Shown: positions 40,211 through 63,417 of the stretch, in pieces
How the letters are laid out: every line of letters begins with the position of its first letter
Numbering within the stretch: position 1 is the first letter of the stretch
Source of the DNA: an uncultured Prevotellaceae bacterium
Lineage (GTDB): Bacteria > Bacteroidota > Bacteroidia > Bacteroidales > Bacteroidaceae
NCBI GenBank assembly: GCA_900315095.1
Contig: OMXS01000004.1
Location: forward strand, 114,649 to 178,648
Reading direction: 5' to 3'
DNA length: 64,000 nucleotides
Program-made: the position numbers and the translations under genes
Notes under the pieces: generated by a model
What the model was told of the DNA's origin: nothing
Databases searched by the model: none
What the model saw: only the letters and a program-made list of their open reading frames with translations

Positions 40211-41743
40211 TTAACGCCTCATAAGGATTTTCCGGGAAGTGCCGTCGGCACTCTTCTCGATGCATAATCCTTGTGGGTTCTCGAGCCTTCGCCCTTGCAG
40301 GTCGTAATAGGTCTTGTCTTCCTCATCATAGTCGTATTCTTCTGACGACTTGATGTCCTGAATGGCATTGCTGACGTTGTCGATGATGAAGATGTATGTG
40401 TTCAGGCTGCGTGCAGGCTTCGGCAAAGACAGCTTGTTTGTGGGGTTGTCTATGGTGATTGGTGTCTCCTGACAGAGTTGGCTCTGCTCGTTGCCTGTTG
40501 AAAGCAAGTGAGTGCCGCTCTTCACGGGGTAGGGCAGATCCAGAGTCAGGTTGGTGGTATTGGCTGTGGTGTCGATACACATCACGATGAGCGAGTCGCC
40601 CTTGATGTATGCCGAGAACTCACGGGCAGCCTCTGCGCCAGAAGTCATGTCTTTCGACGTGGCGAGACGTGTTGAGCCTGTGACATGCTTTGAGAAGTGG
40701 GACAATACATAGGCGCGTGGCAACAGAGCGTTCTTCACGTTCTCCGGGCCATACTGTTCTTCACCCGTTCCAATGAATGCCCAATGGGCGCGCATATACC
40801 AGTAGATGTATCCTGTGCATCCTGCCAACATGCACTCGTTAAGTTCCTCGGCAAAGAGCAGTTGCTCGTGCCAGTTGGGCAGACGGTTGCCGATGTTGTC
40901 GGTAGAAGAGTGCTCGGTCATCCACACCTCCTTGCCGTATTGCGTGGGAAGAATGGCAGAGTTCTTCATGTAGTTGAGCGGTGCATGGCCATAGATGTGA
41001 CCAGCCACGATGTCTATCTGTTCGCGGCATGTGGGGTCTTGCATCAGCGGGTCGGTATAGTTCTGCGTGAAACCAAGGCTCTCGCCGCTGATAAGTTTTA
41101 CCCCTGAAAAGGTCTCCCTGTCGAGCATGTGTGCGTAGTTTTTGACTAGTCTCACCAAGTCCTCAGGGTCATATAGACATCCAGAATAGTCTACCCACCA
41201 GTCAGGCTCGTTCTGAATGGAAACGGCATCAACGTCAACGTCATGGTCCTTCATCCATTGCAGATAGGTGTTCAGCCACGGGAAGAACTTGTCATAGCAG
41301 TCTTCGCGAAGTTTGCCCTTCTGGTAACCCTGCTCTTCAGAGTTTCCACCTTGCGCCGTGCCGTTGGTCTTGTATTCTCCTGGAGGTGACCAAGGAGTTC
41401 CGAATACTATACCGCCGCGATTCTTAACAATCTTGGCTGAGGGCAGAGAACCATTCCAGTCATAGTCGCCCCAGTTGTCGCCGGTGAAACTTGGAGAAAT
41501 CTCCATGCGCATGATGTTGAGTCCGATTTTCGACCTGCGACCGTAAAGTTTGCTTGTAGGTTGTGTATCGGTACCAAACGGTTTCATTGCTCCGTCGCAA
41601 CATGCAGCGCCAAAACCTGTGATTTTTTGGCAAGGCGTGTCGTATACGATCAATTTAACGGTGGGTGGGGCATCATGCTTGCCATCAGCGTAACTGCCAA
41701 TTGCGGCAGCACTTAATAATAACAAAGTAAAAAATCTGTTCAT
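40211..41743 (-). CDS. GH30 xylanase-like glycoside hydrolase
   Basis: Secreted enzyme of 510 residues similar to GH30 subfamily 8 glucuronoxylanases. The signal peptide ends near GSYA. The (beta/alpha)8 barrel carries the acid/base Glu in VSIQNEPDWW and the nucleophile Glu in VWMTEHSSTD, with KITGFGAACCDGAM at the N-terminal edge typical of the family. A C-terminal beta-sandwich follows. The tail YYDLQGRRLENPQG ... RKILMRR is a sorting-like motif as in the GH43 protein. Start at 41743, fixed by signal peptide and promoter. Possible cleavage of glucuronoxylan main chain; other GH30 activities cannot be excluded. Confidence 0.88.
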   Translation of the reverse strand: MNRFFTLLLLSAAAIGSYADGKHDAPPTVKLIVYDTPCQKITGFGAACCDGAMKPFGTDTQPTSKLYGRRSKIGLNIMRMEISPSFTGDNWGDYDWNGSLPSAKIVKNRGGIVFGTPWSPPGEYKTNGTAQGGNSEEQGYQKGKLREDCYDKFFPWLNTYLQWMKDHDVDVDAVSIQNEPDWWVDYSGCLYDPEDLVRLVKNYAHMLDRETFSGVKLISGESLGFTQNYTDPLMQDPTCREQIDIVAGHIYGHAPLNYMKNSAILPTQYGKEVWMTEHSSTDNIGNRLPNWHEQLLFAEELNECMLAGCTGYIYWYMRAHWAFIGTGEEQYGPENVKNALLPRAYVLSHFSKHVTGSTRLATSKDMTSGAEAAREFSAYIKGDSLIVMCIDTTANTTNLTLDLPYPVKSGTHLLSTGNEQSQLCQETPITIDNPTNKLSLPKPARSLNTYIFIIDNVSNAIQDIKSSEEYDYDEEDKTYYDLQGRRLENPQGLCIEKSADGTSRKILMRR

Positions 41744-58807: not shown

Positions 58808-59366
58808 ACGGTCACATGGTCACGGTCACATGGTCACAGTTGTGACCGTGTGACCGCTGTGAGGGACGAGAGACTGCTGTGTTGTATGTAATACATTGAT
58901 ATACAATCATTTACAAGACGTGGTGAGATTGCGCTACTGACTATCTGGTCACACTCACGGTCACACAGTTACGGTCACATGGTCACAGCTGTGACCATGT
59001 GACCGCAGAGCGTAAGAATAACATAAAAGAATATGTAACATATTGATATACAGACATTTATAACGATATATAGATAATGTTGCTGCGAAAAAATGGTCAC
59101 ACGGTCACAGCTGTGACCATGTGACCGCTGGGAGAGGGAAATAGACGTGTAATTGTATAACATGTTGATATACAGATATTTACAAGAAAAACTTGTAAAA
59201 TTTCATTGGGATGTATTGGTCACACGGTCACAGCTGTGACCATGTGACCGCAGAGAAAAGAACATGTATATAACTGTATAATATATTGATATACAATTAC
59301 TTATATATAATTTAATATTGTGCTACGGACTGAATGGTCACATGGTCACAGCTGTGACCGTGACCG
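58808..59366. repeat. Iteron-like array: five GGTCACA palindromes with conserved spacers
   Basis: The 936-base region 58519-59454 has no gene. Five palindromic blocks with core GTCACAGCTGTGAC (GTCACAGTTGTGAC in the first) start at 58833, 58982, 59104, 59227 and 59345, that is 149, 122, 123 and 118 bases apart. Each is bordered by extra GGTCAC and GTGACC units (24 in total: 14 direct, 10 inverted). Four spacers each carry ATTGATATAC or a one-base variant, at about 58895, 59042, 59164 and 59285, then a TTTA-rich stretch. The array ends 89 bases before the next gene. Such phased, AT-flanked palindromes are typical of replication origins or autorepressor operators. Confidence 0.85.
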
Positions 59367-59454
59367 TTTTTGCTTTGATTTTTTCACGAGCGAATAAGAT
59401 TTTCAGCGTTCTTTTTATTACTTTTGCAAAACGATAACATGAAAAGCAAACGAT

Positions 59455-60894
59455 ATGACAACAGAAGAAATCAAGAGAATGGTTGATGATGGGCGGGCAG
59501 AGCAACTCACAGCACAGTTGTGCCGTCACTGGGAGGTGGCCGCTGAAAGATTGGGCGGGCTGGCACAGGAGTTGTCCGCTGGTATGGACACCTGTGTTGA
59601 GGCCGAAATCTATGCTGCTATGATGCGGATGCAGGGTAGTGTGACGGCGCTAATAGAACTGAACAAGATGCCTACAGCCTACCTGTTTTCAGAGTATCTC
59701 GACCGTATTGGCAGAACCGTGTCAGACACCAGCATCCGCCAGTCGGTGATGGCGCTGACAGAACGGATGATGGGCGAGAAGCAGAGCAAGCAGAAAGGCT
59801 CTTTTTTCGACATTATAATAAAGGCGCTGGCACAACACGCTGTCCTGCCGGCAGAAAAGCAAGAGGATATTCTCCAGAAGGCATCACCCATGCAGCACGT
59901 CTTGTCCGTCTGTGCCCAGCACCTGAAACCGGAGGACCTGATGATGGTGATGTCTGTCATTCAGAACATGAATAGCGCCAGCGACAACCAGGAAGATGCC
60001 GTCAGGCAAATCACGGATATGCGGCAGGCGATGGACGAGCTCAACAATAAGATGAGCGAGAGTCTGCAGATGATGCTGATATGGCTTGTCGTTCTCACAC
60101 TTTTGCCTGGGATGATGGTGAGTATGATGCAGCAAAGCCGCACCAACAGCAAGGCGATGGCCCGCCTTTTCAATAAGGTACTCCTGCGCGTGCGCGAGAG
60201 CACCGAGTGGTGGAACTATTGGAGGGACCGACGTGAGACGCTCCGTGTGGTGAGTGACAGCAGTTCTTGGAAAGACATAATGACGGCAGAGCGCACCAAG
60301 GAGCGTGAGGCGCTGGGACAGGTGCGTGGAGGTCTCTTTGCCAAATGGACCACCGACCGCGATGCCTTCGATGCTGAGTTCCTTGAAGTAGGTTTGAGCG
60401 ATGATGATTTGCGGTGCTTTATCTTCCATCTGGCAGCCCTCTCAGAGATTGCAAGAGAACTGGAGCCCACGACGAAGTTCGGCGAGGAACAGTTGGTGCT
60501 CAACGATGAGCAGCGTGTGGGCGGGGCTGTTATGGCTGCTGCCCAAAAACTTCATGACCTGGTGGCTGCTGCCTGGTTCCCTCACTACGATGCCATGTGG
60601 CAGGAACTGATAGCGAACGATGAAATCTTCGCCCGTCTGAAAGTGACGCGTAAGAGTCCCCACAACAACCTGTTCACCGCCCGTTTCTTCTGCCATCTGG
60701 TGGGAGAAATGAAGAAAAGTGCAGTCTTCGGTGCCCATTCCGATGGCGATTTGGCTGAAAAACTGACAAGCAAGCGCTATGTAGGCACTTTCAGGAAGAA
60801 TATCCAGGAAGGCATGGGGGCAGAAACAGAAACGACAAGAAATGCTTTTAACACTATATACCTGAAATACAACGCCTTAGCACGCCATAAGTAG
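59455..60894 (+). CDS. Unknown coiled-coil/membrane protein of the repeat-array module
   Basis: Not recognised. 479 residues: a helical N-terminal half (about 1-200) with a heptad stretch QITDMRQAMDELNNKMSESL directly before one strong hydrophobic segment (LMMLIWLVVLTLLPGMMVSMM region, about 202-222), then a helical, Trp-containing C-terminal half (ESTEWWNYWRDRRE) ending in GTFRKNIQEGMG and FNTIYLKYNAL. A TACTTTTG box lies at 59419-59426. It stands between the iteron-like array and the primase-helicase gene (68-base gap) and is probably co-transcribed with it. A role in replication, partition or defence is open. Confidence 0.75.
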   Translation: MTTEEIKRMVDDGRAEQLTAQLCRHWEVAAERLGGLAQELSAGMDTCVEAEIYAAMMRMQGSVTALIELNKMPTAYLFSEYLDRIGRTVSDTSIRQSVMALTERMMGEKQSKQKGSFFDIIIKALAQHAVLPAEKQEDILQKASPMQHVLSVCAQHLKPEDLMMVMSVIQNMNSASDNQEDAVRQITDMRQAMDELNNKMSESLQMMLIWLVVLTLLPGMMVSMMQQSRTNSKAMARLFNKVLLRVRESTEWWNYWRDRRETLRVVSDSSSWKDIMTAERTKEREALGQVRGGLFAKWTTDRDAFDAEFLEVGLSDDDLRCFIFHLAALSEIARELEPTTKFGEEQLVLNDEQRVGGAVMAAAQKLHDLVAAAWFPHYDAMWQELIANDEIFARLKVTRKSPHNNLFTARFFCHLVGEMKKSAVFGAHSDGDLAEKLTSKRYVGTFRKNIQEGMGAETETTRNAFNTIYLKYNALARHK

Positions 60895-60962
60895 TAGTTG
60901 CACTAAGGCCAAAACAATCCCACTTTGAAGGTGCAACCTCCCTTGCGACCTTTGCCGTAGAT

Positions 60963-63158
60963 ATGATTAATATCGCAACATCATTTAGCGGCAAGCCTCG
61001 CAAGGCGAGCATGGCTGCTTACCGTCAACTGTTGGCGGAGAATCACGTAGAGGAAATCCTCGCAGACGTGAAGCAGAATCATAATTTGGATCGTAAGAAG
61101 GAACTGCCCGTGTGGCTTCCTCTTGCGGAGTGTTTTAAGAATGGTACGCGCAAGGCCGAAGATGCCGTTCCCTCAGGGCTCTACTTCCTCGACATCGACG
61201 AGAAGGGCCTGACGGAGACTCTTTGGAAGAAGGTGCAGGCGGAAAACCTCATTGAGGAGTTCCGTATCGTCTACTTTGCCGAGAGTGCAGGTGGGGGAAC
61301 CCATATCTGGGCTTGGCGCACGCCAGGACTTTCTATCGAGGAGGACATCCAAAGGCTGGCGAGTCGCCTGGGTGTCAACTACGACTCGCATGTGACAGAT
61401 TTGGCACGCTGCTGCTTCATGGTCAGCGAGCAGTATGTGAAGTTGCTCGACCCTAGCGTATTCGAAGCCTCCCCAAGCCCCTCCGAAGGAGGGGATGTTT
61501 GGTTACCTAATGAGGCAGTAAATGACGCAGATGATATGGATGTTGAATCGTCCGTCAGCATATCAACATCCCCTCCTTCTTCGGAGGGGCTTGGGGAGGC
61601 TTTCAGTGGCACCTTTCATGGCATTCCTTACGAAAAGATTGTGCAGGCCCTGCTCTGGAAACTGGGTTATGGCGATGCTCCTGTCGAGGGTGAGCGCAAC
61701 ATGGCTCTTTACACAATGAGCCGCTACCTGCGCTTCATCTGCGACTTTGACGAGCAGAAACTCTTTGCCATAATGCCTCATTGGGGACTTGCCGATCATG
61801 AGGTGATGTCAACAATCAAGAGTGCTGTTGGAAGCGTTCGTCCTTCCGGTCTCCCTTCGCAGATGCAGGATGTACTCACGTCATTGGGGACGGCGATGGA
61901 GGTGGAAACGGAGAAAACCGAAGAGTCGCCCGTCACGCCTGTCGATGATAAGTTGCCCGGAATCCTTCAAGACTTGTCCGACCATGCTCCCGAGGAGTTC
62001 CGCGAGGCTACGCTGATGGCGGCGATGCCCATGCTGGGCACGTTGGCAACAGGCATCCGTGCAAGGTATCGCGACGGCAAGATGAACTCAGCCAGTTTCA
62101 TCGTTGACATCGAGGCTCCACAGGCCACAGGAAAGTCGTTCGTAGATAGTGAGTTCGAACTGCTGATGGACCCCATCATAAAGCAGGATGAGGTAGAATG
62201 GCAGAAGGAGATGGCCTACTCGTTGGCCAAGAAGAATGGCGAAGAGGTGAAGAATCCCTGTTCGCAGATTCGCATCATCGAGCCTAATATCGGTGTGTCG
62301 GCCTTCCTCGAGCGTGCTCTCTATGCCAAAGGCAAGCATCTCTTCACTTATGCTCCAGAGATAGAGACGGTGCAGAAGAACAACCGAGGTGGCGCGTGGA
62401 CGGAGAAGAACGACCTCTTCCGACTGGCCTACGACAACAAACCTTGGGGACAGCACCGCATCTCGAAGGACTCGTTCTCGGGTAAGGTAACGCTCTATTA
62501 TAATATGGTGATGTGCGGAACACCCAACAAGTGCCGCGCTTTCTTTGCCGATGCCGAGAGCGGACTGGTGAGCCGCGTGACACCTGTGGTGCTGCCCGAT
62601 TTGGTGGGAGCCCGTATGCCTCAGTTCAAGACCTGGACGAAGGATGAGGTGGAACGTGTGAAGCGCCAATGTCTATGCCTGATGGACGAAGAGGGCGAGG
62701 TCAGTCTGCCTCTCATCAACCAAGCCATTGAGAAATGGGACGAGGGGAAGCGCCAGGAGTATCTTCAGACGCTGCGCTACTCGCTCGATGTGTTGCGCCG
62801 TCGTGCCGCCCTCAATGGCTTCCGTGCCGGCATCATCGCCTATCTGCTCGAAGGCCGTAAGGAAACGGAGCGTGCCGTTAAGTTCGCCCTGTGGTTTGCC
62901 GAGCGTTGTCTGCACTACCAACTGCAGATCTATGGCGACAAGATCGACGCCCTACACAATAGTGCGCTTAGCACTCAGGCCTCAAAGGGTAATGTCCGCT
63001 ACTTGGATGCGCTGCCCAAGGAGTTCACGAAAGAAGATTTGGTGGGCCTTCGTCTGGCCAATAACGAGTCGCCTGTGGTGAAGACCATCATCTACCGCTG
63101 GGTAAAAGAAAACCAAATCCTGAAAATCGGCACCAACCTCTGGCAGAAGGTAGGTTAA
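60963..63158 (+). CDS. Primase-helicase-like protein: BT4734-type N-terminus plus DUF3987
   Basis: 731 residues. The N-terminal domain (about 1-165) has primase-polymerase-like motifs: LYFLDIDEKG (DxD), ESAGGGTHIWA and DLARCCFMVS, as in the BT4734/VirE-N family. Residues about 220-640 form a DUF3987 helicase-like region with a Walker-A-like EAPQATGKSF and later acidic and Arg motifs. A winged-helix-like end (TKEDLVGLRLANNES) follows. Such proteins belong to mobile or satellite elements of Bacteroidetes. Residues about 169-213 are encoded by an in-frame inverted-repeat insert (61467-61600). No integrase is in the window. Confidence 0.85.
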   Translation: MINIATSFSGKPRKASMAAYRQLLAENHVEEILADVKQNHNLDRKKELPVWLPLAECFKNGTRKAEDAVPSGLYFLDIDEKGLTETLWKKVQAENLIEEFRIVYFAESAGGGTHIWAWRTPGLSIEEDIQRLASRLGVNYDSHVTDLARCCFMVSEQYVKLLDPSVFEASPSPSEGGDVWLPNEAVNDADDMDVESSVSISTSPPSSEGLGEAFSGTFHGIPYEKIVQALLWKLGYGDAPVEGERNMALYTMSRYLRFICDFDEQKLFAIMPHWGLADHEVMSTIKSAVGSVRPSGLPSQMQDVLTSLGTAMEVETEKTEESPVTPVDDKLPGILQDLSDHAPEEFREATLMAAMPMLGTLATGIRARYRDGKMNSASFIVDIEAPQATGKSFVDSEFELLMDPIIKQDEVEWQKEMAYSLAKKNGEEVKNPCSQIRIIEPNIGVSAFLERALYAKGKHLFTYAPEIETVQKNNRGGAWTEKNDLFRLAYDNKPWGQHRISKDSFSGKVTLYYNMVMCGTPNKCRAFFADAESGLVSRVTPVVLPDLVGARMPQFKTWTKDEVERVKRQCLCLMDEEGEVSLPLINQAIEKWDEGKRQEYLQTLRYSLDVLRRRAALNGFRAGIIAYLLEGRKETERAVKFALWFAERCLHYQLQIYGDKIDALHNSALSTQASKGNVRYLDALPKEFTKEDLVGLRLANNESPVVKTIIYRWVKENQILKIGTNLWQKVG
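61467..61600. repeat. In-frame insertion with 33/36-base inverted repeats inside the primase gene
   Basis: The left arm (61467-61499) and the reverse complement of the right arm (61565-61600) are identical except for three extra bases. Each begins GCCTCCCCAAGCCCCTCC and contains the self-complementary CCCCTCCGAAGGAGGGG. The 65 bases between show no similarity to the arms. The whole 134 bases are open in the gene's frame and encode a Ser/Pro/Gly/Asp-rich linker between the primase-like and helicase-like domains. Confidence 0.85.
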
Positions 63159-63381: not shown

Positions 63382-63417
63382 GAGTGGTTATCTCATAACC
63401 ACTCTTTGTTTTTTTTG
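63382..63417 (+). terminator. Terminator of the primase module
   Basis: Perfect stem GAGTGGTTAT / ATAACCACTC with a CTC loop followed by TTTGTTTTTTTT. Strong plus-strand terminator 223 bases after the primase stop. Confidence 0.85.

Follow-up and report, generated by a model that had tools for sequence, protein, structure and literature searches.

The 64,000-nucleotide stretch of DNA analyzed here (hereafter, the window), from contig OMXS01000004.1 of an uncultured Prevotellaceae bacterium, carries a phased array of five GGTCACA palindromes in front of a two-gene module that encodes a protein termed gene 1 and a primase-helicase. We propose, with about even confidence, that this array belongs to a REPIN/BIME (bacterial interspersed mosaic element)-like, origin-like dispersed element and is its home copy, read by the primase-helicase. 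The array would thus stand beside its own genes as one copy of a short chromosomal element that is often accompanied by 22-bp direct repeats. The primase-helicase would bind the palindromes through its C-terminal winged helix, with residue 711 selecting GGTCACA or GGTTACA, and bending by integration host factor (IHF) or HU could bring two palindromes together. The site may serve the module as the start of primase-helicase action and probably in the control of gene 1; copies of it would have reached other intergenic positions unaccompanied by the genes, and would persist or be copied as long as they fit the resident protein, a relation like that of REPINs to their RAYT.

In the window, five 16-bp cores (GGTCACANNTGTGACC) start at 58832, 58981, 59103, 59226 and 59344, with start-to-start distances of 149, 122, 123 and 118 bp. 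An earlier sequence-only reading of this DNA had recognized the array correctly and had placed each core one base too high. When up to two mismatches are allowed, six core matches are found in the window, the sixth at 40987 with two mismatches, compared with a mean of 0.16 and a maximum of 1 in shuffled sequences. Each core of the array is embedded in a palindrome of about 31–34 bp with two GGTCACA-type half-sites per arm, laid out as GGTCACAY-GGTCACA / TGTGACC-ATGTGACC. Palindrome 1 occupies 58809..58856 (core 58832–58847) and has extra GGTCAC half-sites at its left; palindrome 2 (58972..59005, core 58981–58996) is a perfect 34-bp inverted repeat. Palindromes 3 and 4 lie at 59095..59127 (core 59103–59118) and 59218..59250 (core 59226–59241), and palindrome 5, of the terminal form GTGACCGTGACCG, at 59336..59366 (core 59344–59359). 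The second motif that had been reported to repeat in phase between the palindromes, TTGATATAC, is indeed present in all four spacers, one copy in each, between 58889 and 59294 (0.44 copies expected, 2 at most). Read as YAANNNNTTGATW, which corresponds to the IHF consensus on one strand, it is an IHF-type site. The sites, found by motif search and classed from the unit alignment described below, are on the forward strand at 58889..58904 (spacer 1, with an additional TAC, TAATACATTGATATAC), 59036..59051 (spacer 2), 59158..59173 (spacer 3) and 59279..59294 (spacer 4).

Both open reading frames (ORFs) of the module are on the forward strand at the limits given previously: gene 1 (59455..60894) encodes 479 amino acids, and the second gene (60963..63158) encodes a 731-residue PrimPol-type primase fused to a DUF3987/MCM-like AAA+ helicase. 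For the comparison, the window's own genome is labelled G000, and its relatives, their contigs and their loci carry G-, C- and L-numbers. Among 151 genomes of the same genus, a homologue of gene 1 with at least 62% identity is present in 9 (12 when distant ones are included) and the close-group helicase (at least 65% identity) in 13, while some relative of the window helicase occurs in 85. Palindromes immediately precede gene 1 in each of the 19 evaluable modules, namely the window, nine close modules found by protein search irrespective of repeats (9/9) and nine further modules drawn from genomes already known as repeat-bearing, all of which agree; the modules of G033, G101 and G105 end at a contig edge and were not evaluable. 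The array therefore accompanies the module, and the expectation that homologous modules would carry palindromes upstream was borne out, as no evaluable module is without them. None of eight loci with helicases of about 30% identity showed such palindromes (one of the eight has only 0.66 kb upstream). Repeats of any kind are found in 11 of the 13 module genomes and in 7 of the 138 others (p 1.4e-10); because four of these 11 (G006, G022, G025 and G071) show the home array alone, copies beyond the home array give the fairer count, 7/13 versus 7/138 (p 1.5e-5) or, without G007, 6/13 (p 1.5e-4), and all three p values are a guide only, being uncorrected for kinship among species that are not independent.

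Beyond the module, the element is dispersed. The array is not private to the module: in G000, solo arrays stand at five of six sites, an outcome that the sequence-only reading had itself set as counting against it. The six core-bearing loci are located on C13 (4 cores), C20 (2), C26 (4), C49 (3) and twice on C30, at about 90 kb (3) and about 174 kb (the window, 5); C37 adds one stray core match with two mismatches. The full helicase gene is single-copy in this genome; the search otherwise matched two distant, incomplete paralogues (23 and 27% identity) and a short stretch. The neighbors of the five solo arrays are unrelated; named by eye, they are presumably a LysR-type gene, two tRNA genes, a Fic-type gene, a START-like gene with a membrane protein gene, and a metalloprotease gene. 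Across the genus, the GGTCACA form was detected in 13 of the 151 genomes (up to two mismatches), the GGTTACA form in 7 (up to one mismatch) and either form in 18; repeat-bearing genomes other than G000 hold from 1 to about 10 loci. A scan of named genomes returned at least 114 stretches, and the 80 listed carry the names Prevotella, Xylanibacter, Prevotellaceae or Bacteroidales, many of them from ruminants; in viral contigs no array was found. A further candidate heptamer, GGTAACA, was found in none of the 151 genomes (up to one mismatch), although L085 and L094 show such palindromes.

The gene context bears on whether these sites are operators of a regulon under the module or an HU-like protein, a reading we consider very unlikely. 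It would account for the home array lying just upstream of gene 1 in every evaluable module, 12–20 bp from its ATG in several, and for the 33 of 94 placed elements, counting those at module loci, whose end is no more than 150 bp upstream of an ORF start. These 94 are the intergenic portion of 107 elements, the remainder being 11 at locus edges and 2 inside short ORFs. They comprise 57 in tandem, 21 in convergent and 16 in divergent regions (module loci again included), where the intergenic length of the same loci splits 62/16/21%; divergent regions are thus not preferred, for which reason the promoter or operator reading is not favored. The genes beside the six G000 sites, inspected by eye, likewise share no common theme. 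On balance, the gene context fits tolerated extragenic insertions better than a promoter regulon.

Alignment of the elements defines a unit with a characteristic geometry. The 86 loci contain 88 clusters, 48 with two cores, 29 with one and 11 with more than two; one of the single cores (L010, 3956) appears to be a chance match. In elements that retain both outer ends, these ends are inverted copies of each other, in the arrangement AAACGGTCAC-core-ATGTGACC ... GGTCACAT-core-GTGACCGTTT. The core-to-core distance is 110–130 bp in 63 of 82 distinct units and exactly 121 bp in 34, and the spacers are strongly diverged, even among copies within one genome, with only the middle keeping YAANNNNTTGATW; fixed spacing combined with diverged sequence argues that the geometry is what has been kept. 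The exact IHF consensus occurs on the expected strand in 32 of the 63 units (compared with a mean of 0.44 and at most 3 in 300 shuffles of the spacers), and in 52 when one mismatch is allowed (shuffle mean 7.6), 46 of which start at positions 53–57; three of the 63 units are ambiguous in orientation for this count, and shared descent inflates the numbers. The unit is palindrome, IHF-type site, palindrome, and an element has one to four spacers. In a second class, the palindromes are about 280 bp apart and enclose a different interior. A link between spacing class and gene-1 type was considered for G018, where a divergent gene 1 (21% identity) accompanies a spacing of 279 bp, and dropped because G161 shares this gene-1 type and has 122 bp. 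The order palindrome, IHF site, palindrome is that of the BIME-1/RIB/RIP (REP-IHF-REP) elements of Escherichia coli. RIB and IHF are the subject of a paper by Boccard and Prentki that is cited in PMC12306157. The present element differs from these in sequence, in phylum, in its preferred 121-bp spacing and in its link to a primase-helicase.

A third recurrent feature is a direct repeat of 22 bp. In the 280 bp upstream of the modules, 22 is the best direct-repeat lag in 15 of 19, with GTATAGGCGNACNNTCGTTTG as the commonest type; at the L272 module this lag barely exceeds the shuffles (24 versus 23), and at the window module the repeat-lag scan of the same upstream segment detected none. Repeats with a lag of 21–23 or 42–44 flank 69 of 87 dispersed elements on at least one side. 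In several rumen Prevotella, minisatellites recur in long intergenic regions (e.g., G157 C1:730429 and 734117); their sequences are many and unrelated, with a constant period of 22 bp.

Near-identical copies with differing flanks in two genomes show that the element was recently copied. In the complete genome of P. communis E15-14 (G157), two elements lie 292 kb from each other, at 199.8 and 491.7 kb. They are identical along 362 bp and 97% identical across 417 aligned bp, and the genes that flank them on either side are unrelated; both palindromes, the IHF site and the 22-bp repeats moved together without genes. This species has the module. In G165, halves of GGTTACA-form elements from separate contigs agree at 98.9% of 91 bp, and their similarity stops exactly at the outer end of the palindrome.

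The combination of repeats of about 22 bp, an IHF-type site and inverted repeats ahead of a gene, found in much of this family, is reminiscent of iteron plasmid origins such as those of R6K, RK2, F and pSC101, in which direct repeats of about 22 bp, an IHF site and inverted repeats precede the initiator gene. It leads to an alternative close to the sequence-only reading, which had described array and genes as a minimal replicon parked in the chromosome: palindromes, IHF sites and 22-bp iterons would form origin and operator, the module would supply the initiator, and solo arrays would be scars of lost copies. We consider this unlikely, and the replicon description only partly supported. In its favor are the tie between array and module, the IHF-type sites, the 22-bp lag beside the palindromes of 15 modules, the adjoining primase-helicase with its MCM-like fold, the genes past the module 3' end, which differ between genomes (compared by eye), and a G007 remnant that consists of an array plus a helicase 3' end. 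The chromosomal location of the element, a repeat sequence that varies by site and dispersal without genes, which leaves five of the six G000 arrays solo, set it apart from an iteron origin. Neither gene 1 nor the helicase has a match in a plasmid collection, gene 1 has no close relative in viral contigs, and the helicase finds only two weak matches (26–27% identity) in a phage collection. The near-identical solo pair of P. communis, the lack of detectable 22-bp repeats at the window module itself and the lack of any recognizable integrase or relaxase in the module also speak against a parked replicon.

Further evidence for a dispersed element read by the primase-helicase is the covariation of the heptamer with the helicase. 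As the sequence-only reading had predicted in calling the heptamer genome-specific, some related genomes use another one: the module arrays of G006, G007, G138, G157 and G158 read GGTTACA with both arms changed, apart from one mixed half-site in G158. Dispersed loci tend to follow the module, with 23 GGTCACA (C) and 3 GGTTACA (T) loci in genomes with a C module and 3 C and 11 T loci in those with a T module (p 4e-5, tallied by hand and leaving out G105, whose home array is not known). Placed on the helicase tree, the T heptamer requires five changes, of which well-supported branches force three; a neighbor-joining tree built without column 711 again gives five. Among the helicase columns, 711 alone distinguishes the two heptamer groups, with 12 Tyr and 1 Trp in the C rows (13 counted, as one C row lacks this residue) versus Cys in all five T rows. 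In gene 1 no column separates them (L208, L267 and L269 left out). G105, with Tyr and C elements, and the G007 remnant, with Cys and a T element, fit the pattern, and the helicases of G112 (C) and G157 (T) differ at six positions, Y711C among them. Because heptamer letters and residue 711 change together, it is probably the primase-helicase that reads the palindrome, and we hypothesize from the alignment that residue 711 sets the heptamer, Tyr or Trp going with GGTCACA and Cys with GGTTACA.

The predicted structure is consistent with such a role. The DUF3987 part of the window protein models like MCM and ends in a winged helix (residues about 680–731, 63000..63155, forward strand), the predicted palindrome reader. 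Codon 711 (Tyr; 63093..63095, forward strand), which is Cys in all five GGTTACA modules, falls inside a predicted helix of residues 707–715 with a beta hairpin after it, arranged like a recognition helix plus wing, with a predicted local distance difference test score (pLDDT) of 82–89 in this region. Among possible functions, a recognition site read by the helicase winged helix is the best supported; this site may act as an origin, a control site or a copying handle. Fusions of archaeo-eukaryotic primase (AEP) domains with DUF3987 have been described, DUF3987 being a predicted helicase for mobile-element replication according to the available part of the source (PMC5862659). The window protein is likewise a primase plus DUF3987, while a cognate dispersed palindrome or target site is not given for those families in that part (PMC5862659). 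One close DUF3987-primase group thereby gains a concrete candidate target and a one-residue specificity hypothesis (Tyr711/GGTCACA, Cys711/GGTTACA).

The same covariation bears on whether the palindromes act as transcription terminators or as structural RNA hairpins, with no protein dedicated to them, which we regard as highly improbable. The palindromes would fold as hairpins, and convergent regions show a slight excess. A heptamer that covaries with a helicase residue is not expected of such hairpins, conserved spacing and IHF-type sites suggest a role at the DNA level, and Rfam yields only microRNA look-alikes far under the gathering scores.

Close in architecture is the REPIN/RAYT (REPtron, TnpA-REP) system, in which, according to the accessible part of the source, short extragenic pairs of inverted palindromes occupy several sites per genome, the cognate gene is mostly single-copy beside REPs (repetitive extragenic palindromic sequences), and protein and palindrome coevolve (PMC8266576). 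The element resembles REPINs in its two inverted palindromes around a spacer and its extragenic position (2 of 96 placed elements inside a short ORF). Its adjacent genes, however, are gene 1 and a PrimPol-MCM-like helicase rather than an HUH Y1 transposase (no search was made for Y1 genes at other genomic positions), its spacer carries an IHF-type site, and it has about 1–10 loci per genome, whereas REPIN systems have hundreds. A conventional REPIN/BIME system, with a RAYT (Y1 HUH transposase) or some other enzyme encoded elsewhere as its driver and the helicase only using the sites, would explain the similar, mostly extragenic anatomy and also the recently copied repeats of G165, a genome in which no gene-1 relative was found. 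We judge it distinctly unlikely, in view of the low copy number, the covariation of heptamer and helicase, and the lack, by eye, of a conserved GTAG or CGTC tag beside the palindromes, in either the flanks or the alignment. A REPIN-like family spread by a primase-helicase instead of a transposase is a tentative and somewhat doubtful proposal: synthesis would start at the site read by the winged helix, the product would be re-inserted, and solo copies would coevolve with the protein. If the module does copy its sites, this would be a route of spread for palindromic repeats without the HUH transposases now proposed for REPs.

With its terminal inverted repeats and lack of a transposase ORF, the element also resembles miniature inverted-repeat transposable elements (MITEs). 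In Porphyromonas gingivalis, BrickBuilt and 464/PgRS are MITEs with 23- or 41-nt internal tandem repeats and around 10–20 copies, and their terminal repeats resemble IS5-family ISPg elements, according to the available part of the source (PMC4596501). As MITEs of Bacteroidia with internal tandem repeats, they are comparable to the present element. The BrickBuilt ends given there are GAGACCTTTGCA / CGCAAAGGTCTC, those of the present element AAACGGTCAC / GTGACCGTTT, and the same portion of the paper mentions neither a GGTCACA palindrome nor a primase-helicase for those MITEs (PMC4596501). A literature search, thin on subscription journals, found no description of this element.

Several results weigh against an element read and copied by the primase-helicase. 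Regarding the linkage, repeats occur without a close module in 7 of 138 genomes, including G094 at 99% completeness, and of 19 repeat-bearing genomes reached through their loci, a gene-1 relative was detected in only 10 and not in the other 9 (genomes of unstated completeness, in which the helicase was not searched). G165, with its recent-looking copies, is among these nine; its copying may use other means, or the module may be missing from the assembly. Regarding the copying, no nuclease or transposase was recognized in the module, and no target-site duplication was seen in the P. communis or G165 copies. No clean empty site was seen when four G000 sites were compared with G028: three had an alignable flank; one of them has its two flanks close to each other and lacks the array, with a deletion wider than the array, and at the others the alignment breaks off near the site. 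The 22-bp repeats occur in 66 of 85 long intergenic regions with an element versus 10 of 49 without one (at least one of the latter, L110, holds a decayed element), and in a P. communis sample in 7 of 43 intergenic regions without palindromes. Since they are present in element-free intergenic regions too, they are enriched but not diagnostic, and the idea that they form a strict part of the element is weakened; an earlier control (any lag in 6 of 263 segments) lay 1.5–2.5 kb off, probably mostly in coding sequence, and was too weak.

The heptamer matching is subject to similar reservations. It is not strict, as three C loci occur in T genomes and three T loci in G018, and an extra T core in G169 (L268), outside the tally, changes p to 1e-4 when included. 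The residue-711 test was post hoc: of the 6188 possible label subsets, 91 have a column this clean, as do 12 of the 3651 that require five changes. The result of label shuffling varies with the criterion, a looser one being satisfied by 331 of 2000 shuffles and the strict one by 293 of 20000. G028, the G007 remnant, G033 and G101 were omitted from all tests under the strict criterion, and G155 and G167 from these and the loose one alike. Finally, G033 (L209, G033:C139) has His at 711, and no element was found in this genome. G033 may have a third heptamer; His711 as a third specificity was not adopted, as no element accompanies it in a genome that is 83% complete and whose module contig ends upstream.

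As to the remaining features of the module, a TAnnTTTG box at 59419..59426 (forward strand), between the last palindrome and gene 1, is presumably a Bacteroidetes -7-like promoter box. Gene 1 is modelled as all-helical; neither a family above its curated cut-off nor a fold match with E of 0.001 or less was found, and its best family match, NCBIfam PseD (E 0.003, 16 bits against a cut-off of 670), was taken as noise. The primase part of the second protein contains LDID at residue 76, GGTH at 111 and TD at 145–146, and by sequence it matches the AEP motif set hhhDhD, sxH, hD as defined in the available part of the source (PMC5862659); QATGKS lies at residue 387. The earlier DUF3987/BT4734 assignment was right in kind, with both scores under the curated Pfam cut-offs (22.6 versus 27 bits and 13.7 versus 22.4 bits), as are those of the G022 helicase. 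A hairpin followed by a T-run at 63382..63404, found by eye and shared with L200, is the likely terminator proposed in the sequence-only reading, located about 220 bp past the stop codon rather than at the gene end. Within the primase-helicase linker (61466–61601, residues about 168–213), an in-frame inverted repeat has two CCCCTCC..GGAGGGG-type copies; part of it is matched elsewhere in the genome, and relatives have other inserts at this place.

In 13 of 19 modules (e.g., L206, 2815–3435) the array is immediately preceded by an HU-HIG family gene, which is a candidate for the IHF/HU bending role; one more module has the gene downstream. An HU-like gene is not a constant partner, as no match was found in G000, in G028 or in several module-less repeat genomes (e.g., G094). 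Decayed modules were observed at L220 (G007:C113), with an array and then the helicase 3' end only, at L268 (G169:C105), with a GGTTACA palindrome and an 80-residue gene-1 fragment, and at L276 (G167:C81), with a stop codon within the helicase. Between the otherwise near-identical modules of G112 (L201, 1364–2300) and G157 (L275), the array and the codons for gene-1 residues 48–241 have diverged, while the flanks are mostly 94–100% identical; this segment was either replaced or is fast-evolving. On C1 of P. communis E15-14, exact-pattern loci lie at 199.8, 460.0, 491.7, 860.8 and 944.4 kb. These five are confined to 745 kb of a 3.55-Mb chromosome and, judged by GC skew (20 samples), share a single replichore if replication starts close to position 1.

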